Origin: Enterococcus pallens ATCC BAA-351
Lineage (GTDB): Bacteria; Bacillota; Bacilli; Lactobacillales; Enterococcaceae
Direction: 5' to 3'
DNA length: 64,000 bases
Assembly (NCBI RefSeq): GCF_000407485.1
Contig: NZ_ASWD01000002.1
Location: 682,001 to 746,000 of the forward strand
The notes under the pieces were generated by a model that ran no database searches, was not told where the DNA came from, and saw only the letters and a list, made by a program, of their open reading frames with translations. Every line of letters begins with the position of its first letter. The stretch's first letter is position 1. Both the position numbers and the translations under genes were made by a program. Below, piece by piece: positions 5,789 through 39,449 of this stretch.

Positions 5789-7111
5789 TTATGGGTGAAT
5801 ATAAGTTAAACCTGATGCACTTAAGGTTGCAGTGTTTGGTCCCATTGGTGTTGGGAAGCCCATGCCGCCTTGAGTGATTGTGATTGTGTTGCTGCCAGCA
5901 TCATAGGATTGTACGTAAGCTACGTGTCCATAAGATGGATCGGCATTCCATGTTCCAACAGATTGTCCTTGAGCAAAGACAACGATTGAACCAGCTGCAG
6001 GAGATCCGTCTACCTGGAAGCCGTCAGCTGCTGCTGAAGCACCCCATTGACAGCCATTCCCCCAGTAAGTTCCAGCCCATGGAGCTACTGATTTCACGTA
6101 CCAAGTACATTGACCTGGTGAGTACATATTGCCTGAACCAGTATGATCAACTCTGCCGCCAGTGCTGGTGCTTGGAGCTGTCGCTGCAGGTGTTTGTGGT
6201 ACAGAAGAACTTGTTTCTGTTTTTGGCTCAGAGCTTGTTTGTGTTGAAGAAGAGCTTGATTCAGTAGCCGCTGTTGATGACTCTGAAGTTGCTGCTTGTT
6301 CTTTCGCTTCTTGAGCTGCTTTAGCTTGAGAAGCTTCAAACGCTTTTTGTGCTTTCGCTGCTTCTTCGGCTTGACGTTTTTCTTCCGCTTGACGTGCTTT
6401 TTCAGCTTCTTGCTGTTCTTTCAGAATACGCGCTTGTTCTGCTTTAGCAGCTTCTTGCTGCGCCTTCAATTTAGATTTATCTTGTTCAGCAGTTGCTTGC
6501 TCAGCCGCATAGTTTGCTTTGATAACGTTCAATTCAGCTTGCTTATTCGCAATCGCATTTTGTTGCGTTTCTAGTTCTTTTTGGTTTGCAACCAGCTCAG
6601 CCACTTTTTCTTCATTGGCTTTGACTTGCTTTTCAACTTCTTGTTTGTCTTCTTTTTGCTGTTCCATCAATGTTTTGTTCGCTTTAACCATTGTCGTCAT
6701 CGCTTGAACACGACCAACAACATCTGATAATGATTCAGCATCTAACACTGCGTTCACGTAATTAGTTGCTTGACCATTTACTTGTGCATCACGAGCTTGA
6801 TCTTCAATCAACTTTTCACGCTTTGCAATACGAACCTTTAAGGTAGCAATTTTATCTTGTAATTTCATTGTATCTTCGTTTAATTTTTCTTGTTTCGCTT
6901 CTAAGTCTTTTACCTGTCCGCTTACTGTTGCGATTTCAGCAGTCATTTCGTCAATCTGTGTTTGAACAGATGATTGTTTTCCTTGCAATTCGCTGATTTT
7001 TTGATCTTTTTCTTGAATTTGCTGGTCGTAGCTATCGGCTAAAGCAATGCTTGGTACTGTTGATAAAGCTAATGTGCAGACCAATACTGCTGATAAAATA
7101 CTTTTCTTCAC
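5789..7111 (-). CDS. Secreted PcsB/SagA-type coiled-coil protein with C-terminal CHAP domain
   Basis: A 440-residue exported peptidoglycan hydrolase. Residues 1-25 are a signal peptide ending ALADS. Residues 28 to about 270 form a long heptad-rich coiled coil (Glu/Lys/Gln/Ala), then a Ser/Thr-rich linker to about 325, then a CHAP amidase/endopeptidase domain with catalytic Cys335 (GQCTWYV) and His396 (YGHVAYV). This order matches PcsB of streptococci and the Sag/Usp45 family of enterococci and lactococci, which split daughter-cell walls and are activated through FtsX contacts in PcsB. The start codon is GTG with GGAGG nine bases upstream. In E. faecium SagA the catalytic domain is NlpC/P60, so this is a CHAP-bearing relative. 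It is monocistronic, with its own terminator. Confidence 0.9.
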   Translation of the reverse strand: MKKSILSAVLVCTLALSTVPSIALADSYDQQIQEKDQKISELQGKQSSVQTQIDEMTAEIATVSGQVKDLEAKQEKLNEDTMKLQDKIATLKVRIAKREKLIEDQARDAQVNGQATNYVNAVLDAESLSDVVGRVQAMTTMVKANKTLMEQQKEDKQEVEKQVKANEEKVAELVANQKELETQQNAIANKQAELNVIKANYAAEQATAEQDKSKLKAQQEAAKAEQARILKEQQEAEKARQAEEKRQAEEAAKAQKAFEASQAKAAQEAKEQAATSESSTAATESSSSSTQTSSEPKTETSSSVPQTPAATAPSTSTGGRVDHTGSGNMYSPGQCTWYVKSVAPWAGTYWGNGCQWGASAAADGFQVDGSPAAGSIVVFAQGQSVGTWNADPSYGHVAYVQSYDAGSNTITITQGGMGFPTPMGPNTATLSASGLTYIHP

Positions 7112-7507: not shown

Positions 7508-8194
7508 TTATTCCTTTGTTGCTGTCCCACATTCTGGACAGAACTTAGCATCCTCAGCCAGTAACGCCTGGCAATTTTCACAATGCTTTTCTTGAGCTGC
7601 TTGTACATTTGTGCCGCACTCTGGACAGAACTTGGTATTTTTGTCGATTGCAGCCTGACAATTGGGACAAGTGTCTAGTAATGATTGTCCGCAAGAGCTG
7701 CAAAATTTCGTTCCTTCTGGATTTTGCGCCCGACAGTTGGAACAGACAATTCCAGCAGTTCCATTACTGCCAGACATCGAAACAGTCACTATTTTGCCGC
7801 CGGTTTGAATATAATTTTCAATTGCAGCGAAAATTTCCTGTGGTAATTGCTGCTGCTTAAAGGCTCCAAATGCAGCTGTTGCCAGCAATGGGGCAAAAAC
7901 AATTGCTCCGACACCTGCTGCGGCAGCTTTATCAACCCATTTTCCAGTACCAACATTAACGGTAATGCTTTCTGGTGTCGACTGGAAGATCTGCACCTGT
8001 GTCGCTTGATCCATGCCAGCAAACTTTTTCCAGCTTTGCTCTTCTTTTGCTTGAACCAGATAACCTTCCGGTGTTGCCATTCCTTCGACTACAAATCTTT
8101 TCTTTTCACGGAAAAAAATCTCCAAGCCGCGACCAACACTTTCAGCTGTCATTCCCTCTTCTAATGTAAACATCTTTGATTCTGCCATTTTCAT
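7508..8194 (-). CDS. Zinc-ribbon protein with N-terminal PH-like region and tandem Cys4 ribbons
   Basis: A 228-residue protein of unknown function. Residues 1-140 form a folded region with an Ala/Gly-rich hydrophobic stretch (about 88-110, AAAAGVGAIVFAPLLATAAFGAF) that could touch the membrane. Residues 150-225 contain a run of CxxC knuckles (CSNC, CSSC, CPNC, CPEC, CENC, CPEC) that make three complete zinc ribbons in a row. It starts ten bases after the PrsW gene stop and is the last gene of the five-gene operon. GAGGAG precedes ATG 8194 by four bases and ATG 8188 by ten; both are possible. The role could be protein or nucleic acid binding; I cannot assign one. Confidence 0.75.
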   Translation of the reverse strand: MKMAESKMFTLEEGMTAESVGRGLEIFFREKKRFVVEGMATPEGYLVQAKEEQSWKKFAGMDQATQVQIFQSTPESITVNVGTGKWVDKAAAAGVGAIVFAPLLATAAFGAFKQQQLPQEIFAAIENYIQTGGKIVTVSMSGSNGTAGIVCSNCRAQNPEGTKFCSSCGQSLLDTCPNCQAAIDKNTKFCPECGTNVQAAQEKHCENCQALLAEDAKFCPECGTATKE

Positions 8195-8203
8195 CCATCT
8201 CCT

Positions 8204-9319
8204 CTAATTTTTTATCTGCCGAAACTGATTAACTTCTTTTAATCCGGCACTCATTAAAATAAATAATTCGATCCAAGCCGCAACGATCAGCAAAATATAA
8301 ATCAGCAGCTCGCTATTCAGTAACACGATGCCCATATCCCAGACGCCATGGAGTACCACTGCCGAAGCAAAGAAAAAGACAAAGCGTGTATCAAACAGCT
8401 GATTCATATTGAAAGAGCTGGTTTTCTTCACAATAATCACCGCTCCACCAATCATCGCTGACCAAGCCAGATGTGTGCCGATACTCATCCAGCCCCGCAA
8501 AATAATCAATCCGATCACATCTCCATAGCCCAACAATTCCCTAAAGACATAGCCAGAAGTTTCAAAGGCCGCAAAACCTGCACCAACCGCCGCTCCTATC
8601 AGCAAGCCATTTAGAATTTTGTTAATCTTATATTTGTTAATAAAGTAAACAACAATCACTGCCTTTCCCAGCTCTTCTACCACACTGACTAAAAAAGCAT
8701 CTGTAATCGTCATTACTCCAAAATAAGTTGCTTCATCACTAAACGTCACAAACTCATACAAAAATAATGTGCTAAGAATTGAAATAACACCCCCGATGAA
8801 AAAGATTTTAATGACTTCAAAAATACTGATATTTTGATAGACATTAGTTTCAAAGAAAAAGATCAATACTGAGAAGGGAACGGCAAAAGCACCAATGATA
8901 ATCAGTCCTGGAAGTGCATTGCTGTTTTCAAAGCTAGTCACAGCTACCAAAAGTGCTCCAAAAACAATCAGTGCCGCGATAAAAATTCGGGAAAACAACC
9001 ATGGCTTAGACCAGCTGTCAGAAACCTCTGAAATGTCGGGTGTCGTCTGCTTCGTGCCCGCAATAAAAATTTTTTCAGCTTCCTCGTTTGTGTGCTTTTT
9101 AGCGACCTGTGAAAACAATTGATTCAAATCAATCTGCAGGCCATCCTCTTCTCCAGCGTACTTGCCGATTGCCCGAGTCGCTTCGGTAAAAAGTCCCTTC
9201 GCTTTAGCTGTTTCCGCCGCTTCCGCTGGGGATGTCATCATTGGTAATGCAGCACCACACTTCCCGCAAAACTTTGCTTGATCCCCTAATTGATTGCCGC
9301 AATGTGGACAGAATTTCAT
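8204..9319 (-). CDS. prsW: PrsW-family intramembrane metalloprotease with N-terminal zinc ribbon
   Basis: A 371-residue polytopic membrane protein. Residues 1-23 are a Cys4 zinc ribbon (FCPHCG, FCGKCG). From about 108 there are some eight hydrophobic helices carrying all PrsW marks: Glu215-Glu216 (VEELGKA), Glu253 (AAFET), His283 (HLAWSA) and His324 (HGVWD). PrsW in Bacillus cleaves the anti-sigma factor RsiW inside or near the membrane to start a stress response. No sigma or anti-sigma gene is adjacent here. Its start overlaps the stop of the upstream serine hydrolase gene by four bases, so the two are made together. The cytoplasmic zinc ribbon, shared with both neighbours, may recruit a partner; that is inference. 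Confidence 0.88.
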   Translation of the reverse strand: MKFCPHCGNQLGDQAKFCGKCGAALPMMTSPAEAAETAKAKGLFTEATRAIGKYAGEEDGLQIDLNQLFSQVAKKHTNEEAEKIFIAGTKQTTPDISEVSDSWSKPWLFSRIFIAALIVFGALLVAVTSFENSNALPGLIIIGAFAVPFSVLIFFFETNVYQNISIFEVIKIFFIGGVISILSTLFLYEFVTFSDEATYFGVMTITDAFLVSVVEELGKAVIVVYFINKYKINKILNGLLIGAAVGAGFAAFETSGYVFRELLGYGDVIGLIILRGWMSIGTHLAWSAMIGGAVIIVKKTSSFNMNQLFDTRFVFFFASAVVLHGVWDMGIVLLNSELLIYILLIVAAWIELFILMSAGLKEVNQFRQIKN

Positions 9320-10542
9320 TCTTCATCACTCCTCATAAACGTTTCGTAAAATTCTTTTCCTAAACGATTCATTGCTACTAATTGTTCACTAGAATTGCCA
9401 TCCTCTGAAAGAACCACCAATACATAAGCGTTGCCGTCCTTTTCAAAAATACAGGCATCATTTTCTATTCCATAATCAGCATACTCTCCCGTTTTGTTGT
9501 AGATATTTACTTCTGGTCCAATTTGCGCCGGCAGCTTGCGGTGGTTTTTATTCTGATTCAAGAGCTCTAGCATTGCTAAATCATGAACCGGTGAAACCTG
9601 TTTTTGCTGATAAACGTTTTGTAGTAAGCGAGCTACATCTTCAGCACTCGTGTAGTTATCAATTCCCGCTTCCAATGCTTCCGTATCCAGAAACAAACGA
9701 TTCATCACGGTTCCGGAAAAATTCTGCTCACGAAGATAATTGTTCAACTCTGAAAGACCCCCAAGCTGTTCAACCAGAATATTGCCAGCTGTATTGTCGC
9801 TATCCACCATCATATGAGCAAGCAACTGATTGATCGTCAATGTGCTACCAATTGGATAATCTTGCAACACGCCCGTTCCACCAACAATATCTTGGCTGAG
9901 CAGCGTATATTCCTGATTTAACGCCAATCTTTTTTGATCCACTTGCTCATACACAGCTGCCATAATGAATAATTTGATTACACTTGCAGCCCGTCGCATA
10001 TTTTTTTCTTCCATTGTAAAGGTAGGGCCGTCAGCTTCAATTGGTGCCAGCAGTACACTGAAATTTCCATCAGCTCCGTTTAAAGCAGTTTGAGCAATTC
10101 TTCTGGCTTCTGCCACGTTAAATGTTGACTCCTCTGATTCGCCTGTTGTCTCCGTGGTAGAGACCAATGATTGACTGGTGTTGCTTTCTTGTGATGTTTC
10201 CGTTGAATGCTCAATGGAAGACTGAACCGTCGTTGCCTTTTCTTCAGAAGTACGGGTTGTCCACCAGAAATAACCGCCGATTGCTCCAACCAGCAGTAAT
10301 ACCAGCAGGCCCCACTTCCAACCAGACTTTTTGGGGTCAGGGTTTATTTGCGGCCTGCCGCGGTAGATGGCCCCTTCCTCTTTTTGCGAAATAATTTTCT
10401 CTGTAACAGCTTCGGTATCGACAGCAGTTTCTGCCGACTCTTCAATTGGTTCTGGCGTTGAATGTTTAACCGATGTTCCACATTTCTCACAAAAGGCTGA
10501 AGCTTCTGCCAGCGGCGCACCGCATTCTTCACAAAATTTCAT
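9316..10542 (-). CDS. Zinc ribbon - transmembrane - class A beta-lactamase-like serine hydrolase
   Basis: A 408-residue single-pass membrane protein. It has an N-terminal zinc ribbon (residues 4-22, FCEECG and FCEKCG), a membrane helix (about 76-92), a Ser/Thr/Glu-rich spacer (about 98-140) and an extracellular penicillin-recognising domain. All three active-site motifs are present: SVIK (187-190), SDN (248-250) and KTG (350-352). A clear class A ExxLN omega-loop glutamate is not evident, so acylation without efficient antibiotic hydrolysis is likely; it may act on peptidoglycan or sense beta-lactams. I start at 10542, where AGGAGG precedes ATG; a longer open frame upstream overlaps the Mor-like gene. 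It overlaps the PrsW gene by four bases. Confidence 0.85.
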   Translation of the reverse strand: MKFCEECGAPLAEASAFCEKCGTSVKHSTPEPIEESAETAVDTEAVTEKIISQKEEGAIYRGRPQINPDPKKSGWKWGLLVLLLVGAIGGYFWWTTRTSEEKATTVQSSIEHSTETSQESNTSQSLVSTTETTGESEESTFNVAEARRIAQTALNGADGNFSVLLAPIEADGPTFTMEEKNMRRAASVIKLFIMAAVYEQVDQKRLALNQEYTLLSQDIVGGTGVLQDYPIGSTLTINQLLAHMMVDSDNTAGNILVEQLGGLSELNNYLREQNFSGTVMNRLFLDTEALEAGIDNYTSAEDVARLLQNVYQQKQVSPVHDLAMLELLNQNKNHRKLPAQIGPEVNIYNKTGEYADYGIENDACIFEKDGNAYVLVVLSEDGNSSEQLVAMNRLGKEFYETFMRSDEE

Positions 10543-10546
10543 AAGC

Positions 10547-10837
10547 CTAACTTTCCTCCTGCTCTTTGATTTCTCGCAGCATTCGCTCAATACTGCGCTG
10601 ACTGTAGCCATAGGTGCGAGCCAGCTTTTGCTTGTTGCGGCCATCGTAATCGCTGCGCAGTACATCCAGCATATGTGACCGAGAAATCAAACGTACGGGT
10701 AAATTCAATTGAATCCCTCGATATTCCTTGAATAAGTTCAACGTTGCTTCGGTACCAATAACTTTCTGCAAGTCTTTATAAATTTTATTCCAACCAGACG
10801 TATCAAGCTCATTCACTTCTTTTCCCCCATTCGTCAC
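10547..10837 (-). CDS. Mor-like helix-turn-helix protein 1
   Basis: A 96-residue protein resembling the Mor/C transcription activator family of Mu-like phages. The centre (about 38-60) has the YRGIQLNLP strand segment seen in Mor (compare Mor GGxxxYIP), and the C-terminus (about 68-90) is a helix-turn-helix, NKQKLARTYGYSQRSIERML. It ends four bases before the serine hydrolase start and has AAGGAG six bases before its ATG. It is clearly related to the next gene upstream. It probably controls this operon; family assignment is by motif only. Confidence 0.65.
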   Translation of the reverse strand: MTNGGKEVNELDTSGWNKIYKDLQKVIGTEATLNLFKEYRGIQLNLPVRLISRSHMLDVLRSDYDGRNKQKLARTYGYSQRSIERMLREIKEQEES

Positions 10838-10891
10838 TCCTTAGTTAAAATAATAATGTTTTCAAAAAACCTTATCTCGCGATTTTTTCAA

Positions 10892-10914
10892 CGACATTAC
10901 GCTTCCTTTTGTCG
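10892..10914. promoter_or_regulatory. Candidate operator, CGACA-N13-TGTCG
   Basis: The 106-base gap between the two Mor-like genes contains an inverted pair CGACA (10892-10896) and TGTCG (10910-10914). A related dyad, GACA-N5-TGTC (11255-11267), lies in the divergent promoter region upstream of the second Mor-like gene. The shared half-site suggests one regulator of the cluster binds both places. Short half-sites make this tentative. Confidence 0.3.
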
Positions 10915-10943
10915 CTGCTTTCTAGTTGACTCTGTAACAACAA

Positions 10944-11213
10944 CTAGGTAAAATCCTCTTTTTGTTTTTCCTTGATAAGTCGTTCAATCTGTCGCTGTGA
11001 ATAGCCATATTTCTGGGCAAGATGTTGTTTGGTCTTAAGGTCAATCGGAGGAAGGATTGCCAGTCTTTCTGCCAGCTTTTTACCACTGTAAAGCTTTTTA
11101 GGAACACTAATTACCAGCCCTTGGTAATGCTCAAAAAATACCAGCATTGCTTCTTCGCCCAGCAGCTCTGCTAATTCTTGATAAAAGCTATTTAGTAATT
11201 CTTTTTCAACCAT
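10944..11213 (-). CDS. Mor-like helix-turn-helix protein 2
   Basis: An 89-residue paralog of the preceding gene product. It shares the central YQGLVISVP segment and the C-terminal helix-turn-helix KQHLAQKYGYSQRQIERLI. I start it at 11213, with GGAGGGAGG just upstream; the longer frame to 11261 would run into the divergent promoter. It is the first gene of the operon and faces the WYL regulator across 68 bases. Two similar small regulators in tandem suggest duplication followed by divergence, or a heterodimer. Confidence 0.65.
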   Translation of the reverse strand: MVEKELLNSFYQELAELLGEEAMLVFFEHYQGLVISVPKKLYSGKKLAERLAILPPIDLKTKQHLAQKYGYSQRQIERLIKEKQKEDFT

Positions 11214-11254
11214 TGAAACCTCCCTCCTTCGGCAATATGGTATCATTAAGCAAT

Positions 11255-11267
11255 GACACATTATGTC
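11255..11267. promoter_or_regulatory. Candidate operator in the divergent Mor-like / WYL promoter region
   Basis: GACA-N5-TGTC dyad in the 68-base space between the two divergent start codons. It sits directly upstream of the AAGGAGG of the WYL gene, so a bound protein would block that gene and could also act on the operon in the other direction. Confidence 0.3.
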
Positions 11268-11281
11268 GCAAGGAGGTCCTC

Positions 11282-12226
11282 ATGAACAGCAATAAGCGAA
11301 TTATTGAATTATTTCTCACTCTTTACCAAGGTCAACGTCTTGCTATCCCAGAGACTAGTTCTCGCTACGATGTTTCGCCGCGTACCATTCAACGGGATCT
11401 TGCCGCAATTAAAGAGATTCTGAGCACCAGCGATGTTGCGCTAAAATTGATTTACGATCCCCATCAACAACGCTATAAGCTGGAAAATACTGACAAGCTT
11501 TCACCACAAGAAGTTTTATCAATCGGCAAGATTCTACTGGAGAGTCGAGCACTGACGAAAGAAGAACTAGAAAAGATCATTAATCATCTATTAAAGGAAC
11601 TCTCTGACGAATCCAGCAAGACAGTCAAGAAGTCACTAGCAAATGAGTTGTTAAACTACTATCCACTAAAGCATCAGGAAAACCTATTCCAATTAATTTG
11701 GGATTTCAGCCAGTACATTGCTGAACACACCGTCATTGCTTTCGATTACCGCAAAAATCGCGGCGAATTTGTCCAACGCAAAGGCCTGCCGGTTTCACTG
11801 ATTTTTTCGGAGTACTATTTTTATGTCCTGCTGTACAACCCAACGTATGAAAATTATTTGATTTATCGCCTGGATCGTTTCGGTAAAATCACTATTACTT
11901 CAGACAAAATAAAAATCCCCTACAAAAATCGTCTAGAGGATGGTGAGCTGCGGAAAAAAATCCACTTTATGTATGCCGGCAAAGAAGTCACCTTCACCTT
12001 TCGTTTTTGGGGAATCGTCGAGGCCGCTTTAGACAAGCTGCCAAATTCTAGAGTCATCAAAACATTCGAAGACACTAGCGTGATTATTGAAGCCACTGCC
12101 TACGATACCGGTGTAATCATGTGGCTGCTGAGTCAAGGCAAGAATGTTCAGGTACTTTCGCCGCCGTCATTTGTGGACAAAATACGAGAAGAAGTTGAAG
12201 ACATGTTAAAAAGGTACACGGATTGA
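11282..12226 (+). CDS. HTH-11 / WYL-domain transcriptional regulator
   Basis: A 314-residue DeoR-like regulator. Residues 1-60 carry a winged helix (VSPRTIQRDLAAIKEIL), and the centre and C-terminus form a WYL domain and its extension (WYL signature region around residues 150-215, YYFYVLLYNP and YLIYRLDR, ending in a C-terminal WCX-like segment). WYL proteins sense ligands or single-stranded nucleic acid and often sit beside defence or stress loci. I start at 11282, with AAGGAGG seven bases upstream; the longer frame has no ribosome site. It is divergent from the Mor-like/zinc-ribbon operon and is the likely master regulator of it. Confidence 0.85.
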   Translation: MNSNKRIIELFLTLYQGQRLAIPETSSRYDVSPRTIQRDLAAIKEILSTSDVALKLIYDPHQQRYKLENTDKLSPQEVLSIGKILLESRALTKEELEKIINHLLKELSDESSKTVKKSLANELLNYYPLKHQENLFQLIWDFSQYIAEHTVIAFDYRKNRGEFVQRKGLPVSLIFSEYYFYVLLYNPTYENYLIYRLDRFGKITITSDKIKIPYKNRLEDGELRKKIHFMYAGKEVTFTFRFWGIVEAALDKLPNSRVIKTFEDTSVIIEATAYDTGVIMWLLSQGKNVQVLSPPSFVDKIREEVEDMLKRYTD

Positions 12227-12400: not shown

Positions 12401-12658
12401 TTAATTTAAAAACCAAACTTCATTCATCTTACGTAGAAATTCATCAGACAATGTATATTGACTGCCTTGTGGAATGACTGAATCTATACCACAGCTTGGA
12501 CATAACGCCGTTTGATCCGGTTCCCCATCAATCCAGCTTTGAATTCTCTCGTAATTAAAGATTGCACCACAATAGAAGCAACCACACAAGCCTGAATTCT
12601 TTAACAACTCCTTGTTGTAAATTGAATATTTGTGGGCATCAGCATAAATTTTTTCCAC
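12401..12658 (-). CDS. Small zinc-binding cytoplasmic protein
   Basis: An 85-residue protein with two cysteine pairs, CGCFYCG near residue 25 and CPSCG near 55, separated by about 28 residues, which should bind one zinc ion. Similar short proteins are annotated only as cytoplasmic or hypothetical protein in many Firmicutes. The start is GTG with GGGAG ten bases upstream. It follows the DUF1456 gene on the same strand after about 110 bases but no shared role is evident. Confidence 0.65.
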   Translation of the reverse strand: MEKIYADAHKYSIYNKELLKNSGLCGCFYCGAIFNYERIQSWIDGEPDQTALCPSCGIDSVIPQGSQYTLSDEFLRKMNEVWFLN

Positions 12659-13507: not shown

Positions 13508-14179
13508 CTATGGGAATTCAGTCATTCGTTCACGTTCAAATACCATTGATTCCTTAAATAATTTTGCCAAGGACTCACTATCCTGTTCTCCTAGATATTC
13601 CATATATTGACCTCGCCATTCTTTTCTGATAACAATCGGCACTCCTAAATATTTCATACTCAGGTACATCAATAGTAGGCGTCCGGTTCGTCCATTTCCA
13701 TCAGAAAAAGGATGGATTCGTTCAAACTGAATATGAGTATCTGCTAATACTTCCAAAATTTCTTGTTCATCAGTTAATAAATCTAGACGGTTGTTTGTAT
13801 TGTCAGCCCATTGACTCATTAGTAATGGCATTTCCTCCGGCACAGCCGTTTTGAATTCCGCTCCACGGATCGCATTTTGCTGCGTTTTAAACTGACCCTT
13901 ATCATGCTGCAGACGATCTGTTAGCAGAAAATGAAATTGCTTGATTTCTGCTATATCTAATGACTGATTTTCAGCTAACAATCCAATCAAATAAGCAAAG
14001 GCTTGCTTATGATTTTCAATTTCATAAAATTCACGAATGCTTTTACCGCTGCTGGGAAGCGTTCCTTCTAAAAGGATAGAGACCGTCTGCGGCAAGCTGA
14101 TGGTGTTACCTTCTATTCCACTGGAATGATACGCCATTCGGACAAGCGCATCGTCTAAATAGTCTTGAGAAACATCCAT
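13508..14179 (-). CDS. Fic-family protein (AMPylase), inhibitory motif in cis
   Basis: A 223-residue Fic protein. Fic enzymes transfer AMP or other nucleotides onto target side chains. The core motif HPFSDGNGRTGR (156-167) is intact, with catalytic His156 and the anion-hole glycines. Near the N-terminus SSGIEGN (19-25) fits the (S/T)xxxE(G/N) inhibitory helix, which makes this a class II, self-inhibited Fic protein. There is no partner antitoxin gene beside it, in agreement with that. GGGAGG precedes the ATG by seven bases. The target is unknown. Confidence 0.9.
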   Translation of the reverse strand: MDVSQDYLDDALVRMAYHSSGIEGNTISLPQTVSILLEGTLPSSGKSIREFYEIENHKQAFAYLIGLLAENQSLDIAEIKQFHFLLTDRLQHDKGQFKTQQNAIRGAEFKTAVPEEMPLLMSQWADNTNNRLDLLTDEQEILEVLADTHIQFERIHPFSDGNGRTGRLLLMYLSMKYLGVPIVIRKEWRGQYMEYLGEQDSESLAKLFKESMVFERERMTEFP

Positions 14180-32749: not shown

Positions 32750-33973
32750 TTAGCGGTTGATGGTTACTTTTGTATCCACCTTCACGGTTACACAGCCGTT
32801 TTTAATTACATAAACTCGTTCAGGGATGTCAATGATCGCATTGGCTTTGACCTTCGTGTCTAACAAGACTAGGTCAGCCTTTTTCCCTTCTGCAATTCCA
32901 TAATCGGTTAAGCCTAAAGCCTTGGCTGGATTTTCAGTAATCATTGGTAAAACGGTTGGTAAATCGTCAGCGCCGCCTAAATGTCCCACAGGAACCGCCA
33001 GCATCGCAATTTGAATCAAGTCACCATTGCCGTAAGGGGTGAAGGCGTTGCGAATATTATTGGTTGCCAGACAGATGTTTACGCCGGCATCACGCAGCTT
33101 GCGAATTGGCGTTACCGCTCGGCGAACGTTGTATTCGTCATTACGCGCACCTAAATGCAAGTCAGTCGCTGGTAATGGCATCACATTGATTTTCGCTTGG
33201 GCCATCTTGCCGATTACTCGATCCAGTTCGTCTTTCTTCATGGCATGCAAAGCCGTTAAATGCCCCACTGAAACACGGCCTTCGTAGCCTTCTTTGATGG
33301 TTTTTTCGCACAGGTATTCGATGGACGTTTCATCTGCTTCGTCCGCAAAGTCCTGATGCAGGTCGATATCCTTGTTATATTTTTTAGCAATTTCAAAAAT
33401 CAAGTCGATGTGCTCATTGGCTGGTGCATCATTGTAAGGAATGCCGCCAACTACATCAGCACCCATATCCATGGCTTCATACATCATTTTTTCTGTACCA
33501 GGTGCTTTGAAAATTCCTTCTTGCGGGAAGGCCACTACCTGCATATCAATCATGTCTTTGTATTCTTCTTTTAATTTCAAAATCATCTTAAAGCCGGTAA
33601 AGCCCTGTGCCGGATCAAACTCGGAATGGGTTCTAACAGTTGTTGCCCCACGGCGAATAATCATTTCCAAGGCTTGCTTCGCCCGGTTGTATACATCTTC
33701 TTCAGTGAACGTTGGTTTCAATTTGGCGGTTACTTGAATTGCTTCTTTTAACGTGCCTGATTTGTTCGGTTCACGGTCAGCGATTAACGCCTTGTCCAGA
33801 TGAATGTGGCTTTCCACTAGTCCTGGGATCAATACGCGGCCGTCTGCTTCAATTACTTCATTTGCGGTTTCGTCAATCGTCGGTGCAATTTTGACAATTT
33901 TGCCGTTTTCAATTGCGATATCCTGCAACGCTTCGCCGTCATTTAATCGTGCTTGTTTAATTAATAAATCCAT
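32750..33973 (-). CDS. Cytosine deaminase-like amidohydrolase
   Basis: A 407-residue metal-dependent hydrolase of the CodA-like branch of the amidohydrolase superfamily. Metal ligands are visible in ESHIHLDKAL, DLHQDFADE, VGHLTALH and the late ATNNIRNAFTPYGNGD, where cytosine deaminase has a similar metal-binding Asp loop. Rather than cytosine, the setting among carbamoyl-transfer genes suggests a cyclic ureide or N-carbamoyl compound that is opened to feed the carbamoyltransferase. I start at 33973, eight bases after AGGAG; a GTG nine bases upstream abuts the ribosome site. Confidence 0.85.
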   Translation of the reverse strand: MDLLIKQARLNDGEALQDIAIENGKIVKIAPTIDETANEVIEADGRVLIPGLVESHIHLDKALIADREPNKSGTLKEAIQVTAKLKPTFTEEDVYNRAKQALEMIIRRGATTVRTHSEFDPAQGFTGFKMILKLKEEYKDMIDMQVVAFPQEGIFKAPGTEKMMYEAMDMGADVVGGIPYNDAPANEHIDLIFEIAKKYNKDIDLHQDFADEADETSIEYLCEKTIKEGYEGRVSVGHLTALHAMKKDELDRVIGKMAQAKINVMPLPATDLHLGARNDEYNVRRAVTPIRKLRDAGVNICLATNNIRNAFTPYGNGDLIQIAMLAVPVGHLGGADDLPTVLPMITENPAKALGLTDYGIAEGKKADLVLLDTKVKANAIIDIPERVYVIKNGCVTVKVDTKVTINR

Positions 33974-34000
33974 TCTGTTCACTCCTATGTCTTTTTTATA

Positions 34001-35356
34001 TTAACCAAAAATTAATCCAATTGCTAACAGTAAAACCGAGGCTAAACTCAGCCATTTGACATTTCCTTTTACCACATCCAAAATTGGGATCTGGAAACCG
34101 GAAGATAAAGCCTGCATCGTAATGTTTACAAAGCTCATTTGACTGCCTAAGCCGACACCCATCGTCACAAAACCTAAAGCCAACGGTGGGAAGCCTAGTG
34201 AAACTGCGACTGGCAGGACTAACGTCAATACCGAACCTACATAAGCACCTGCTGGAACCCCGATTAATACGCCAGTCAAAATAGCTACTGGTACTACGAT
34301 AAATTCCGGCGCATTTTGTGCAATTCCGGCGATTACCGCAAAGGTTCCTGTTTGAGCGATAACATTAATGAAGGCCAAGAAAATCCCTACTTGGAACAAA
34401 CGCGTTAAAATGTAGGTGGAACCGTCGACCATTGCTTCCACTGATTGATTCATGGTGAAGTCGGTACAAATGAATACCAGTGCTAAGGTTAAAATCATGT
34501 AAACCAATGGCGTGAAGAAGGCAAATCCGATTACATCATTTACCACTGGACCAAAGATTACGGCAAACAACAAGAAAGTTGCCGGTAAAGTTAATTTGAA
34601 CAGTTCTCCATTGGATTTTTTATCAAAAACATCATCCTCTGATTCCTTGAAGCCGACGTTCCGGCGTTTGGTTCCCCAGAAAGCTAAAACAATCGCTAAG
34701 GCAACAAATACTAACCAGTACGGACGCATTACTGAAACGTAATCACCAACACTTACATCTCCCAGCTTGGAAACAATACTTGATTCCAAAGAAGCCGGTG
34801 AAGTGGTAAAAGATACCGCTGCCGCCAAGGACATTCCGGCAATCAGCTCGGGAACAACCCCAACCGCCGCAAAGGCCAAGGGTGCGATAACCATCGCGCT
34901 GCCGCCGCCAATTCCTGACATGTAGGTTGCTGCGGCTAATAACACTACGATAAATGCTGAAACAAATTCGACTTTTCCTTTAGTGCCTCGTTTAGCCAGT
35001 GTTAAGGCTGCCGAGTAGCTGCCTGCTTTAAATACCGCCATCGCTACTGCTGAGTTGATAATGGGAACGGTGATGCTCAACATTGATGGAATGGTCTCCA
35101 ACAGCTGAGCATTGGCATCCATTAGGCTGACGCCGCCGATCAGCATGGCTAGAACCCCGGCTACTAAACCTGCGATAATCATATCGACCTTCATAAACAG
35201 CAAAACCAGCACCAATATTAAGGGAACAATAACTAAAATAGCTTTAAATCCAGTTGGCGCAGTAATGGCATCTAATCCATCCGATGCATAAGCGCTGATT
35301 CCTGATGTCACGCCTACCAGCAACATCAGGAGAAATAACGTAATTTTTCGTTTCAT
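34001..35356 (-). CDS. Putative ion-transporter-superfamily permease (ureide uptake?)
   Basis: A 451-residue membrane protein with about 11-12 hydrophobic helices. It has two similar glycine-rich regions, MSGIGGGSAMVIAPLAFAAVG in the first half and GVPAGAYVGSVLTLVLPVAVS in the second, as expected for the inverted repeats of ion-transporter-superfamily carriers (CitMHS, DcuC and relatives). The N-terminus may be a cleaved signal or first helix. It lies between carbamate kinase and the amidohydrolase genes, each within 30 bases, so it likely imports the substrate of the cluster. Exact family is uncertain. Confidence 0.7.
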   Translation of the reverse strand: MKRKITLFLLMLLVGVTSGISAYASDGLDAITAPTGFKAILVIVPLILVLVLLFMKVDMIIAGLVAGVLAMLIGGVSLMDANAQLLETIPSMLSITVPIINSAVAMAVFKAGSYSAALTLAKRGTKGKVEFVSAFIVVLLAAATYMSGIGGGSAMVIAPLAFAAVGVVPELIAGMSLAAAVSFTTSPASLESSIVSKLGDVSVGDYVSVMRPYWLVFVALAIVLAFWGTKRRNVGFKESEDDVFDKKSNGELFKLTLPATFLLFAVIFGPVVNDVIGFAFFTPLVYMILTLALVFICTDFTMNQSVEAMVDGSTYILTRLFQVGIFLAFINVIAQTGTFAVIAGIAQNAPEFIVVPVAILTGVLIGVPAGAYVGSVLTLVLPVAVSLGFPPLALGFVTMGVGLGSQMSFVNITMQALSSGFQIPILDVVKGNVKWLSLASVLLLAIGLIFG

Positions 35357-35381
35357 GACTAAGCTCCTCTACTTTGTAGTA

Positions 35382-36317
35382 TTAACAAACAATTCTCGTT
35401 CCAAAGCCGGCTACAATATTGCTTAAATTTTCAATGGACGTAATCACGGCTTCGCGTTTTTGACTTTCTTCTACAAAATCAATCGCAGATTCAACCTTTG
35501 GCAGCATGCTGCCTGGCGGGAATTGATTTTCTTTAATGTATTGCTTGGCTTCTTCAATTGTTAATTTTTCCAGCTTCTTTTGATCCGGCTGATTGTAGTT
35601 GATGTAAATATTATCGACACCCGTTAGGATAATCAGTCGATCGGCATTGATCTCTTTGGCTAGATTGTTAGCGGAAAGATCTTTATCAATCACCGCTTCT
35701 GCCCCTTCATAAACACCGTCTTGGTTTTTGATCACGGGAATGCCGCCGCCACCGACACAAACAGTGATAACATCTGCTGCCACCAGTGATAGGATCGCAT
35801 CCTTTTCAACAATCCGTTTAGGCTTAGGAGAGGCAATCACTTTACGATAGCCTCGTCCTGAATCCTCCTGATAAACACCTTCCCCATTGGCCATTTTTTG
35901 CTGCGCTTCCTCTTTGGTGTAAAAAGGCCCGATTGGTTTCGTAGGATTTTGGAAGGAGGGATCTGCGGCATCTACCTCCACTTGGGTAATCACGCTAATG
36001 ACACTTTTTTGGATGCTGCGTTTTTGCAATTCGTTTTGAATCGCCTGTTGAATCCAGTAGCCGATACTGCCTTCTGTCATAGCTACATTGGTGTCCAGCT
36101 TCATCATAGGTGTCTTTTCTGAATCACCGGCCTTTTGCTGGATCAGCAGGTTTCCTACCTGCGGACCATTGCCGTGGCAGATCACCACCTGCTCTCCGAG
36201 TTCAATAAATTCGATAATGTCTGACGCGACCTTGCGTACAACCTCCTTTTGTCCTTCGTCAGTAGGAATTTTATCTAAAATGGCATTTCCGCCTAAAGCA
36301 ATCACATTTAATCCCAT
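35382..36317 (-). CDS. arcC: Carbamate kinase
   Basis: A 311-residue enzyme that converts carbamoyl phosphate and ADP to ATP, ammonia and CO2. The start MGLNVIALGGNAIL, the HGNGPQVGNLLIQQ loop and the GGGGIPV segment are all characteristic. It lies 17 bases upstream of nothing but its permease and directly after the FdrA-AllG fusion gene, with no arginine deiminase or ornithine carbamoyltransferase gene nearby. It should therefore draw carbamoyl phosphate from oxamate-type transcarbamoylation, as AllK does in E. coli. Confidence 0.95.
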   Translation of the reverse strand: MGLNVIALGGNAILDKIPTDEGQKEVVRKVASDIIEFIELGEQVVICHGNGPQVGNLLIQQKAGDSEKTPMMKLDTNVAMTEGSIGYWIQQAIQNELQKRSIQKSVISVITQVEVDAADPSFQNPTKPIGPFYTKEEAQQKMANGEGVYQEDSGRGYRKVIASPKPKRIVEKDAILSLVAADVITVCVGGGGIPVIKNQDGVYEGAEAVIDKDLSANNLAKEINADRLIILTGVDNIYINYNQPDQKKLEKLTIEEAKQYIKENQFPPGSMLPKVESAIDFVEESQKREAVITSIENLSNIVAGFGTRIVC

Positions 36318-36334
36318 GTTTGTCTAATCCTTTC

Positions 36335-39328
36335 TTACTCGACTTCGATGCCTAGCGATGTTGCATAGGCTTCTAAGGCTTTTTCAAAGCAGCTTAATGG
36401 TGCTCTAACTGTTCCTGCACCGACTTGACCAACGCCGGCTTCTTTATTGGCAATACCGGTATTAATAATTGGAGTAATTCCTGTTTCTACAACTTTGCGA
36501 ATATCGATGCCTAGACAGGTCCCTTGGAAATCCCAAGTTGGAATGGTCCAGGTTGGGTTATGTCCAATACTAATCTCGGCCATTTCATTGGAGATAGACA
36601 AGGCATCTTGGAAGCCGCCTGCTCCGACAAAACGAGTGACCCCAGGAGCTGCTACCATCGCCATACCGCCGACTCCGATGGTTTCAGTGATGGCACTGTC
36701 TCCCATATCCGGGTTGCCGTCTTCTTCGGTAAATCCTGTGAAATACAAGCCTTTTGGCAAATTCACCGGAGCAGTGAACCATTCGTCGCCGGTCTCAGCA
36801 ATCCGTACCCCAAAATCAACACCGTTTCTCGTCAAGGTGGTAACTACTGTTCCTTTGGCATTTTTACGCGCCGTATCTACGATGGATTTGCCGGCTGCCA
36901 TCATAATATTCAAGAAGAACTGATCGGTATCTGCCAAGAATTTCATGACATCGAATTTGTCTTGTTCATCGATTTGCAGCGTCACAATATGTGGTGCTAC
37001 TTCCCGTAAAAAGTTCAAGGATGCCGCAAAATTGCGTTGATGGAACTCATCCCCCATCGTAATTGAACGGGCAATCAGAACACTCAAGTTAATTCCGTTG
37101 GCGTTTTGTTTCAATGCTCCTGACAAGGTTGGTCCTAAAACATCCTTCATCCAGTTCAAGCGGTCAATCACTTCCTGTGAAAAGGCCCCAAAACGCAGCA
37201 CTTTACCAATACCTTCATTCATGGTGCAATAGCCAGTTGAGCCGTCCAGGCGATTTTCAACTACAAAGACCGGCATGTTCGCTGAGGTAATCCCTCCCAT
37301 TGGTCCAACTGCATGGACATGATGACAAGGAATAAAGCGAATCTCTCCTGCTTCGACTAAGGCAGTGACTTGATTTTCATCGGTCGCCCAGCCTTCAAAA
37401 ATAGCGGCCCCTACCACTGAGCCCTTCATAGGACCAGTCATGTCTGCCCAAGCAATCGGTGGTCCAGCATGCAGCAAGGTTTTGGTTGCTTCATTCAGCT
37501 CTGGAATCACCGTTTTAGCTGGCACAACATCGGTTAGGAATGGCTGAGCGTTTTTGATTTTTTCCATTACCTGCTGGTTTTCTTCGTTAATTTGATCTTC
37601 GTAATCAGCTAAAGCGTTCAAGATTTTGATCATCTTCTGATTGCCGCCTGCCCGAGGCTTCCAGTTGAATTGCTCCGATTTGCCATCGAAGGCTTGAATC
37701 GATTGGTTAAAGCTTTGCAGACCGACATTAATGATCCGTGGTTTTGTGTTTAATAGTTCCATCACCTTTTCACTTGGTGCAGGCACGGTTACTTTGCTGC
37801 CTTGATAAGCAACCACGACTTTTGGTTCTTCGGTTAGTTCAATTCCTTTTAAGCGCAAAGCCAATTGGACGGCTTTCGCATTGCTTTCGGCAACCAATAC
37901 ACCTTTGGCTTTCAAACGTAAAACGGCATCTTCATAGTTTTGCGGATCTTTATTCGTTCCAACTACCGTAGCGATAAATGTCAGCTCTGGATTAACACCT
38001 TGGGCTTCCTTGATGGCTGGCATTAACGCCCCCACCATGTCTTCATGAGCACCGTAGCCTAGAACAACATCCAACAAGATGACTCCGGTATTTGCATCTG
38101 CTGCGTATTCTTGAATCTTCTTCACTCGAACTTCTGGGTCAATCATAGGATGAGGCTTGCCTTGAGTGTAAATATCATCCCCTAAGTCAATCACATCGTA
38201 GCCAGCTGATTTCAAAATGTAGCCGGCTTCCTTAACTAACCCTGCCAAGCCTAGAGCTTCTGAGATCAGCATGCCGGCTTCAGCTGCCAAGGTTCCTCCT
38301 GAATAAAGGCCTTTGATAACTTTGTCTTCGCCAATTGTTTGCTCAGGTGCCGCAACTGGTTCGAAATAGTTTTCCTTAACGGGTACTTCATTAGCTAAAT
38401 CAACCGCAATCTTAGCTGTTTCCTCTAACGTATGAGCCAAGTAAACCTTGCCTTCATGAGCTGCAGGTTTTTCACCTAGGAAAATTGCTACGACTGGCTT
38501 GGAAATACTTTGCAGCAGCTGCACCACTTCATCCCGCACTTCTTTTGCTGGCGGCTTAGAAATGACACAAATGACATCTGTAGGTTCGTGGTTCTCTAAA
38601 GCCACAATTGCATCCTTCATCGTAATCGCGCCGACCTTGTCACTGAGATCCCGACCGCCGGTACCAATGGCATGAACCACGCCATTTCCTAGACGATCAA
38701 TAATCGTAGTTACTTCTTGAATCCCGGTTCCGGAAGCTCCGACAACCCCGATATTCCCTGGTGACACGACATTGGTGAAGGCAATCGGAATACTAGAGAT
38801 AATCCCCGTTCCGCAGTCTGGCCCCATCATCATCAAGCCTTTTTCATGGGCCAGTTGTTTCAAACGTACTTCGTCTTCTACAGGAATGTTGTCAGTGAAG
38901 GAGAAGACATGCAATCCGTTTTTCAACGCTGTTTCCATTTCAGCTGCTCCATATTCTCCGGGAATACTGAACAACGCCATGTTGGCATCTGGTAATTGCT
39001 CCAAGGCTTCCTGCCAAGTAGTCGACGCCTTTTTTGCTTCGCTAGAGCCTTTAGAAGACAAATCGCTTAAGAAGTTGTCCACCTCTGGCAAGACCTGCTC
39101 CATAATTTCCGGCAATTCGCTGTCAACTACAATCATCAGGTCATTGGGTGAAGCCGCTTTCGCTTCTTCCGTTAATAAACCGGTATTTTCTAAAATATCT
39201 TTATTGGCATTGGTTCCCATCATCAGCTGACTCATGGTAACTGCCTCTAATTCATTGATACGGTTGGTCAATAGCATCAAATTAATGGAATCTTGATAAT
39301 TATTCTTTAAAATAACTGTATTAAGCAT
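36335..39328 (-). CDS. fdrA: Fused FdrA (AllF) - DUF1116 (AllG) oxamate carbamoyltransferase protein
   Basis: A 997-residue protein joining two proteins that are separate in E. coli. Residues 1 to about 512 match FdrA, with a succinyl-CoA-synthetase-like Rossmann domain (NIGVVGASGTGIQEV, 192-206; TGGRDLSDKVG) and a ligase-like second domain (VILLDVVLGYGAHED, 416-430). Residues about 530-997 match DUF1116/YlbE: GPPIAWADMTGPMKG, FIPCHHVHAVGPMGG and the C-terminal GAGTVRAPLSCFEKAL. No stop or frameshift separates them. The E. coli counterparts, with AllH, are oxamate carbamoyltransferase. It is the first gene of the operon, divergent from a PucR regulator. Confidence 0.88.
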   Translation of the reverse strand: MLNTVILKNNYQDSINLMLLTNRINELEAVTMSQLMMGTNANKDILENTGLLTEEAKAASPNDLMIVVDSELPEIMEQVLPEVDNFLSDLSSKGSSEAKKASTTWQEALEQLPDANMALFSIPGEYGAAEMETALKNGLHVFSFTDNIPVEDEVRLKQLAHEKGLMMMGPDCGTGIISSIPIAFTNVVSPGNIGVVGASGTGIQEVTTIIDRLGNGVVHAIGTGGRDLSDKVGAITMKDAIVALENHEPTDVICVISKPPAKEVRDEVVQLLQSISKPVVAIFLGEKPAAHEGKVYLAHTLEETAKIAVDLANEVPVKENYFEPVAAPEQTIGEDKVIKGLYSGGTLAAEAGMLISEALGLAGLVKEAGYILKSAGYDVIDLGDDIYTQGKPHPMIDPEVRVKKIQEYAADANTGVILLDVVLGYGAHEDMVGALMPAIKEAQGVNPELTFIATVVGTNKDPQNYEDAVLRLKAKGVLVAESNAKAVQLALRLKGIELTEEPKVVVAYQGSKVTVPAPSEKVMELLNTKPRIINVGLQSFNQSIQAFDGKSEQFNWKPRAGGNQKMIKILNALADYEDQINEENQQVMEKIKNAQPFLTDVVPAKTVIPELNEATKTLLHAGPPIAWADMTGPMKGSVVGAAIFEGWATDENQVTALVEAGEIRFIPCHHVHAVGPMGGITSANMPVFVVENRLDGSTGYCTMNEGIGKVLRFGAFSQEVIDRLNWMKDVLGPTLSGALKQNANGINLSVLIARSITMGDEFHQRNFAASLNFLREVAPHIVTLQIDEQDKFDVMKFLADTDQFFLNIMMAAGKSIVDTARKNAKGTVVTTLTRNGVDFGVRIAETGDEWFTAPVNLPKGLYFTGFTEEDGNPDMGDSAITETIGVGGMAMVAAPGVTRFVGAGGFQDALSISNEMAEISIGHNPTWTIPTWDFQGTCLGIDIRKVVETGITPIINTGIANKEAGVGQVGAGTVRAPLSCFEKALEAYATSLGIEVE

Positions 39329-39373
39329 TTCATTTATCCTACCTTTCCTCTACACTATTATTCTAAAGATAAA

Positions 39374-39388
39374 AGATTGCGTTTTCAT
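39374..39388 (-). promoter_or_regulatory. cre site (CcpA) in the fdrA / pucR divergent promoter
   Basis: On the reverse strand ATGAAAACGCAATCT matches all fixed positions of the 15-base cre consensus WTGNAANCGNWNNCW. It lies directly beside the -35 of the PucR promoter and about 50 bases upstream of the fdrA start, so CcpA could repress both directions when a preferred sugar is present. Confidence 0.65.
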
Positions 39389-39417
39389 CGGACAATATTC
39401 TAAAAAAGTGCTATACT
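39389..39417 (+). promoter_or_regulatory. Promoter of the PucR-type regulator gene
   Basis: CGGACA (39389-39394) and TATACT (39412-39417) with a 17-base spacer, 33 bases before the ATG. Confidence 0.55.
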
Positions 39418-39449
39418 TTTTATCCATAAAGCGCAAAAAGGAGAATCTC

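Follow-up and report, generated by a model that had tools for sequence, protein, structure and literature searches.

A zinc-ribbon PrsW-SxxK operon beside a WYL regulator in Enterococcus pallens: a possible surveillance module of envelope-linked anti-phage loci

The locus considered here, positions 7508-12226 of a 64,000-nucleotide stretch of Enterococcus pallens ATCC BAA-351 (contig NZ_ASWD01000002.1, positions 682,001 to 746,000; this whole stretch is the window below), carries a WYL regulator gene opposite a five-gene operon, and its closest described relatives lie in separate systems. The intramembrane protease PrsW has as its substrate RsiW, a protein with N-in/C-out topology. PBP-A resembles class A enzymes in fold and lacks their general base, which class A beta-lactamases provide through the motif E-x-x-L-N. 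For the anti-phage system Bunzi (BnzA and BnzB) we know of no described mechanism or sensed signal. Among WYL repressors of defence systems, BrxR recognises inverted repeats, spaced by 5 bp, that lie downstream of its promoter (PMC9122601), and the palindromes bound by CapW overlap the -10 site (PMC9122588). In the Bacillus subtilis pspA-ydjGHI operon, small membrane and soluble proteins are reported to depend on one another at the membrane under envelope stress.

The window operon is transcribed on the minus strand in the order Mor1-Mor2-SxxK-PrsW-ZR3, and the WYL gene diverges from it on the plus strand. We lean tentatively, without calling it probable, towards reading the locus as a WYL/Mor-controlled membrane-surveillance module of a mobile, envelope-linked anti-phage family, which would work with, or be accessory to, Bunzi-type (BnzAB) machinery. 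What speaks for this at the level of sequence is the gene set, its conservation, its motifs, an operator-like site and the adjacency to Bunzi in relatives.

Gene set and protein architecture

All six genes that a first-pass annotation of the window had placed in this interval were recovered there as open reading frames (ORFs) with Pfam matches. Taken as a whole, its observations are partly confirmed and its interpretation is partly supported. The features are:

7508-8188, minus strand: ZR3, 226 amino acids; PF12773/PF13240, alignments and a structure model
8204-9319, minus strand: ZR-PrsW (PrsW below), 371 amino acids; PF13367 and aligned homologues
9316-10542, minus strand: SxxK protein, 408 amino acids; PF13354, PDB sequence matches and motifs
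10547-10837, minus strand: Mor2, up to 96 amino acids, start uncertain; PF08765
10944-11213, minus strand: Mor1, 89 amino acids, first gene of the operon; PF08765 and alignment
11255-11267, no strand: operator-like palindrome GACA-CATTA-TGTC between Mor1 and the WYL gene
11282-12226, plus strand: WYL regulator, 314 amino acids, with helix-turn-helix (HTH), WYL and WCX regions; Pfam, relatives and neighbourhoods

From Mor2 onward the operon genes overlap or sit at most 15 bp apart (SxxK and PrsW overlap by 4 bp), and the gap between Mor1 and Mor2 is 106 bp. Sequences resembling ribosome-binding sites precede SxxK, PrsW, ZR3 and Mor1; the starts chosen for Mor1 (11213), SxxK (10542) and ZR3 (8188) give genes shorter than the longest ORFs.

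The SxxK protein consists of one N-terminal C4 zinc ribbon, a hydrophobic, presumably transmembrane segment and a PBP-A/class A-like domain predicted to be extracellular (PF13354, 179.6 bits against a cut-off of 22). The transmembrane segment was assigned by eye and from homologues, a crude hydropathy count giving 1 in most homologues and 0 in the window copy. Its closest PDB sequences are 4hes (6.4e-18, class A-like), followed by Tll2115 (2j7v, 7.9e-18), which we take to be PBP-A; by sequence, the outer domain is thus PBP-A-like, with PBP-A or class A-like proteins as its nearest solved relatives. The SxxK, SDN and KTG motifs are all found in the window protein. The motif string was matched in 29 of 31 homologues, the pattern failing for L092 and L023 (L and G numbers denote loci and genomes), and none of the 29 has an ExxLN-like motif between SDN and KTG. 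The protein in L023 (9392-10753), a close homologue from the Enterococcus genome G006, reads KAG instead of KTG, so that catalysis may be dispensable there. In addition, the window protein misses the NCBIfam class A beta-lactamase cut-off (111.9 against 200 bits).

PrsW likewise begins with one C4 zinc ribbon, which is joined by a conserved cytosolic linker to the PrsW protease domain (PF13367, 84.3 bits against a cut-off of 23.5). The catalytic residues E215, E216, K219, E253, H283, H324 and D328, forming the pattern E-E-x-x-K, E, H, H-x-x-W-D, are invariant in all 12 aligned homologues. The regulated proteolysis suggested in the first-pass annotation is therefore possible, since the protease is intact. 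Between ribbon and membrane lies a conserved cytosolic G-T-x-x-T-T-P, which persists in relatives that have no ribbon or something else in its place, among them those from Staphylococcus aureus and Listeria. The protein falls far below the sigma-W-type PrsW equivalog (NCBIfam NF033739, 38.6 against 225 bits). The window genome (G000) also has a second PrsW-family gene, of 287 amino acids and without a ribbon (L001:1213-2076, contig C1).

ZR3 differs in layout, its three zinc ribbons being C-terminal (starting at residues 149, 174 and 203 and spanning 149-220). The earlier idea of N-terminal ribbons shared by three proteins thus holds for two of them, SxxK and PrsW, and fails for ZR3. The N-terminal domain of ZR3, about 130 residues with a hydrophobic stretch, has a predicted alpha/beta fold (mean model confidence, pLDDT, 64) that resembles helix-grip-like domains with modest Z, the structural matches being middling.

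On the regulatory side, the WYL protein exceeds the cut-offs for PF13280 and for WCX (PF25583), with HTH matches below cut-off; phmmer finds no match for it among PDB sequences at E 0.01. Both Mor proteins pass the PF08765 cut-off of 24.9 bits narrowly (Mor2 30.8, Mor1 25.4). Mor2 is 91-98% identical in two relatives of the same genus, and no phage record matched Mor1 at 1e-3. The 68-bp interval between Mor1 and WYL holds the palindrome 27 nt upstream of the WYL start, a spacing identical in the relatives G006, G012 and G094. Of 27 WYL genes, 12 have an exact GACA-N5-TGTC in the roughly 150 bp that precede them, where chance would give about 0.002 per gene; ten of these sites fall 27-49 nt before the aligned start, and the other two, at 96 and 149 nt, may be chance. 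Among the spacers tried, 5 is the commonest, with 22 sites in the scanned loci against about 6 expected (other spacings, 2 to 12). Three ORF pieces whose N-termini did not align were excluded from the counts. The WYL regulator is likely a repressor.

Conservation and defence neighbours

A neighbourhood search, proposed earlier as a check, shows that the set is not strain-specific and is conserved across families. Within the family (105 genomes, window genome counted), PrsW occurs in 3, all of the same genus, ZR3 in 4 and Mor1 relatives in 15; across the order (395 genomes), ZR3 is found in 6 (E <=1e-20) and SxxK relatives in 40 (E <=1e-25). A packed Mor-ZR3-SxxK-PrsW operon is present in four genomes of Levilactobacillus, a genus of another family (L044-L047, including L. 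paucivorans and L. lindianensis); the set is also found in L. humaensis, in Lapidilactobacillus wuchangensis and, tightly packed on one strand, in Enterococcus (L098). Because the set recurs as an operon in another family, with ZR3 placed differently, it is more than a chance assembly. Secundilactobacillus similis has it without Mor and with the SxxK gene split across two ORFs (L102:8724-10204). An SxxK-PrsW pair was seen at 15 Lactobacillales loci, with Mor within 1.5 kb in 10 of them; pairs without ZR3 occur in G229, G304, G337, G338 and G293. Moreover, among the 25 of 46 SxxK places examined, PrsW adjoins SxxK in 10 of 17 ribbon-bearing loci against none of 8 ribbonless ones (p 0.0077; L080, in which the first ribbon cysteine is missing, was scored ribbonless).

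The content of such loci varies. ZR3 stands without SxxK or PrsW in Carnobacterium, and SxxK is accompanied by other polytopic ribbon proteins in L080, L083 and L089. In G293, six ribbon-protein genes are clustered, SxxK and PrsW included (L085:4779-9270). Elsewhere a Mor-like gene overlaps a double-ribbon membrane gene (L027:5874-7929, L030:6577-7420), and in G070 the ORFs that follow Mor-like and double-ribbon genes resemble, by eye, the outer part of a lactococcal ribbon protein of 324 amino acids. The Enterococcus copies lie beside DUF1456, a gene present in 19 of 20 genomes of the genus, and that of G012 is also near a gene we take to be rlmH-like. A variable site flanked by rlmH-like and DUF1456 genes is seen in this genus (L022:6236-7485, L245, L246); in G002 it holds what is presumably a methylase-like gene and a DpdB-like gene of 749 amino acids (5.1e-27).

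The link to Bunzi emerges from these neighbourhoods. Four of the 15 SxxK-PrsW loci have BnzB or a short relative no more than 6 kb away, against none of 16 SxxK loci without PrsW (Fisher p 0.043); in four of the 15 (L045, L046, L082, L099) the sequence covered on one side ends before 6 kb. As BnzB is found in only 25 of the 395 genomes (26 places), chance adjacency should be rare, and a random-position model gives about 3e-11 for four or more of 15, ignoring relatedness and hot spots. These p-values, like that for the ribbon and an adjacent PrsW above, are too small because the sequences are related (four loci of one genus, three of Enterococcus).

The four cases differ in arrangement. In G006 the 4.5-kb stretch between DUF1456 and WYL holds BnzA (2.6e-125) and BnzB (2.1e-147), and in G012 a pair (BnzA 2.2e-150, BnzB 1.1e-148; all by PADLOC) starts 275 bp after ZR3. 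These two pairs belong to different lineages (BnzA 26% identical) and lie on different sides of the locus, and thus probably joined it separately. In Lapidilactobacillus (L104), short BnzA/BnzB relatives (BnzB 1.4e-25) precede Mor-ZR3-SxxK-PrsW on one strand, with two WYL genes on the opposite strand. In G337 (L082) a short Bunzi relative (BnzB 5.4e-64) leads into the pair, with gaps of 43 bp from BnzB to SxxK and 21 bp from SxxK to PrsW. Moreover, an N-terminal ribbon of the same kind as those of the module is carried by BnzA of G006 and also of G154, G367 and G221; in G221, one cluster holds the WYL, DUF805, BnzB and ribbon-BnzA genes along with a Mor-like gene that, at 15.4 bits, falls under the Pfam cut-off. 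On the Lactococcus garvieae plasmid pLG50 (L257:6845-10161), a BnzB relative stands beside an Asp23/AmaP/GlsB envelope-stress gene set.

The earlier hint that WYL regulators stand beside defence genes gained ground, both from the Bunzi neighbours and from WYL relatives, some of which adjoin Bunzi, BnzB-like, LeoA-like or candidate defence genes. WYL relatives occur in 49 of the 395 genomes (E 1e-28). We fetched 20 of the listed places, leaving out an 81% identical WYL piece of 89 residues in G280; a Mor-like gene lies beside WYL in 8 of them, as it does in the window, G006, G012 and G094. Outside the family, the closest relative of full length (G175, 47% identity) adjoins a LeoA-like gene (1.2e-8), and in G135 the candidate defence pair PDC-M09A/B is near the WYL gene. 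Among plasmids, 17 records carry a WYL relative, 14 of them lactococcal. Of the five records read, pLLI11B, pB26B and pNP40 share a common plan, in which three membrane genes, including one for a ribbon-DUF805 protein, are followed by a divergently oriented WYL gene and, beyond it, by cargo: full Bunzi together with a short BnzB relative in pLLI11B, dynamin/LeoA-like genes in pB26B and a BnzB-like gene in pNP40 (L313, record 33611-40037). The other two membrane proteins of pNP40 have no ribbon as annotated, and this plasmid further carries LlaJI, an Abi family gene and AbiE; its WYL, membrane-gene and BnzB-like module is a candidate for the phage-resistance functions still unassigned on the plasmid. 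In the remaining two, pNCDO184A and a C. difficile plasmid, WYL stands with other cargo and no ribbon membrane genes are annotated in view.

Three further genes flank the window operon. Downstream of it, at 5789-7111, is a gene for a PcsB-like coiled-coil and CHAP protein, with a 91% identical copy downstream of the G006 operon. An ORF of 85 amino acids with paired CxxC motifs lies between WYL and DUF1456 (12401-12658); it has no Pfam match and a single NCBIfam match far under cut-off, and G006 has Bunzi between the same neighbours. At 13508-14179 a Fic-family gene matches the PADLOC candidate PDC-S04 (9.5e-109), with a 96% identical copy near the G006 locus and a remnant of 84 amino acids (61% identity) in G007.

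A surveillance module and its rivals

The mechanism we infer would run as follows. A WYL-WCX dimer on the palindrome between the divergent promoters would hold down both the WYL gene and the operon, until a ligand produced in phage or DNA stress frees them, whereupon Mor1 and Mor2 would drive the operon. The PBP-A-like domain of the SxxK protein, outside the membrane, would engage peptidoglycan or its fragments, with the ribbon inside. Once the outer domain is engaged, PrsW would cleave the single-pass SxxK protein, on the model of PrsW and RsiW. The SxxK protein is likely the PrsW substrate; it is the best candidate because it is the only single-pass operon protein with a large outer domain, adjoins PrsW and has, as far as can be deduced, the topology of RsiW. 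The ribbons of SxxK, PrsW, ZR3 and, where present, BnzA would then assemble on the inner membrane face, from which a signal would pass to an effector; in the window strain, with no detectable BnzB, the module would act alone or with some other effector. An envelope-surveillance module of anti-phage loci appears the simplest account that takes in not only the gene set and its shared ribbons but also the WYL/Mor switch and the neighbours of Bunzi type.

A number of results weigh against a defence module of this kind. BnzB is absent from the window genome by protein and profile hidden Markov model searches (BnzA was not searched), there is none within 6 kb in 11 of the 15 SxxK-PrsW loci, and of the 21 BnzB places examined among the 26, only that of G337 has SxxK-PrsW beside it. 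With no BnzB in the window strain, and with SxxK-PrsW missing from 20 of the 21 Bunzi places examined, a defence role is only inferred. PADLOC gives no match for PrsW, SxxK, ZR3 or Mor. A WYL gene lies within 6 kb in only 4 of the 15 SxxK-PrsW loci, the 20 fetched WYL neighbourhoods contain no SxxK, PrsW, ZR3 or BnzB, and the exact GACA-N5-TGTC is not present upstream of WYL on the lactococcal plasmids. Furthermore, the plasmid collection has no SxxK match at 1e-30, SxxK stands beside PrsW in none of six plasmid records with a PrsW relative, and no defence gene was seen near the PrsW relatives of S. aureus, Listeria and Niallia by annotation or eye (no PADLOC scan was made there).

The chief competitor, doubtful in our view but carrying considerable weight, is a cell-envelope stress cluster with no phage role, in which SxxK and PrsW monitor antimicrobial peptides or the integrity of the wall and the nearness of Bunzi only reflects shared insertion hot spots. 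Statements on PrsW in the literature agree with it, as B. subtilis PrsW serves the sigma-W envelope response, a review has a S. aureus PrsW homologue suggested in sigma-S activation, and a title in that review's references states that PrsS protects against cell wall-targeting antibiotics, PrsS perhaps being the S. aureus relative found here. The many loci without nearby BnzB, and the site by DUF1456 (in G012 also by the rlmH-like gene) that varies between genomes, point the same way. However, the Bunzi link crosses families and replicons, BnzB immediately precedes SxxK in L082, the short pair of L104 lines up with the operon, and on lactococcal plasmids the layout of WYL and ribbon membrane genes recurs with Bunzi or dynamin-like cargo. 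PrsW is close to the CPBP/Abi immunity group, and it is conceivable, if improbable, that the locus serves immunity to antimicrobial peptides or bacteriocins, with PrsW a member of the wider CAAX/Abi membrane protease group and the ribbon membrane proteins shielding the envelope. Two plasmids would suit this account: on pNCDO184A a related WYL gene has bacteriocin genes and a CPBP protease in its vicinity, and pNP40 carries a CAAX protease and a bacteriocin immunity gene. Yet no bacteriocin structural gene was seen next to those SxxK-PrsW loci that were read (no search aimed at bacteriocins was made), and the BnzAB and dynamin-like neighbours are not immunity genes.

It is very improbable that mobile genes have simply collected here without working together. 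The variable content described above, with ZR3 on its own in Carnobacterium and SxxK among other ribbon proteins, would be expected of such a collection, but the same packed one-strand set in Enterococcus, Levilactobacillus and Lapidilactobacillus (and, without Mor, in Secundilactobacillus) would not, nor would the association of the SxxK ribbon with an adjacent PrsW gene. Least credible of all, in our judgement, is a locus that senses beta-lactams or confers resistance to them, as BlaR/BlaZ does, which the class A-like domain and its SxxK, SDN and KTG motifs would invite, and to which the missing ExxLN-like motif, the class A score below cut-off and the KAG of one close homologue are opposed.

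If the surveillance reading is true, phage entry or lysis at the envelope would be connected to an effector inside the cell by a route that can be tested, and regulated intramembrane proteolysis would extend to phage defence. WYL, Mor and ribbon membrane genes together make a marker set for finding defence cargo in lactic acid bacteria. A bolder version, rather unlikely in its full form, would make this a class of envelope-coupled anti-phage immunity, in which membrane sensors tagged with a ribbon are cleaved by a PrsW that bears one too, or work together with a DUF805 protein, the ribbon being a common plug that joins the WYL/Mor front end to exchangeable effectors (Bunzi, BnzB-like, LeoA-type dynamins). 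In this version the part of sensor would fall to the SxxK protein with its PBP-A-like domain or, among lactococci, to different outer proteins anchored through a ribbon.

Comparison with known systems

Set against Bunzi, the module is similar in having BnzB or a short relative nearby in some loci and in sharing its kind of N-terminal ribbon with some BnzA proteins, but the window genome has no BnzB, and SxxK, PrsW, ZR3 and Mor match no PADLOC model. The comparison with PrsW-RsiW-sigma-W of B. subtilis rests on a PrsW family protease with its catalytic residues and on a SxxK protein that, like RsiW, would be single-pass and N-in/C-out; the window PrsW differs in its low score against the sigma-W-type family and in its added ribbon and conserved cytosolic linker, and no anti-sigma or sigma factor is among the Pfam matches of the six window genes. 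PBP-A (Tll2115) is the second-best PDB sequence match to the SxxK protein, for which, in contrast, we predict a membrane anchor and a zinc ribbon in the cytosol. YdjG and YdjI carry ribbons, and the word "zinc" is absent from the text of the pspA-ydjGHI paper. Like the module, pspA-ydjGHI combines small membrane and soluble proteins under an envelope-stress theme; unlike it, the six window proteins have no Pfam match to a PspA/SPFH domain at E 0.01.

The nearest parallels for the regulator are the BREX and CBASS repressors BrxR and CapW, with which, on sequence grounds, the window WYL protein appears to share the HTH-WYL-WCX architecture and a promoter-region palindrome with a 5-bp spacer; it differs in finding no PDB match by phmmer at E 0.01, in being paired with Mor-like genes and in having neighbours that are not BREX or CBASS. 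As the first-pass annotation had suspected, no system of this make-up was found described in the open-licence literature searched, be it the gene set, the operator or the tie to Bunzi and dynamin-like genes. Each part comes from a known family, and what appears to be new is the combination, the operator-like site and the tie to Bunzi and dynamin-like cargo.

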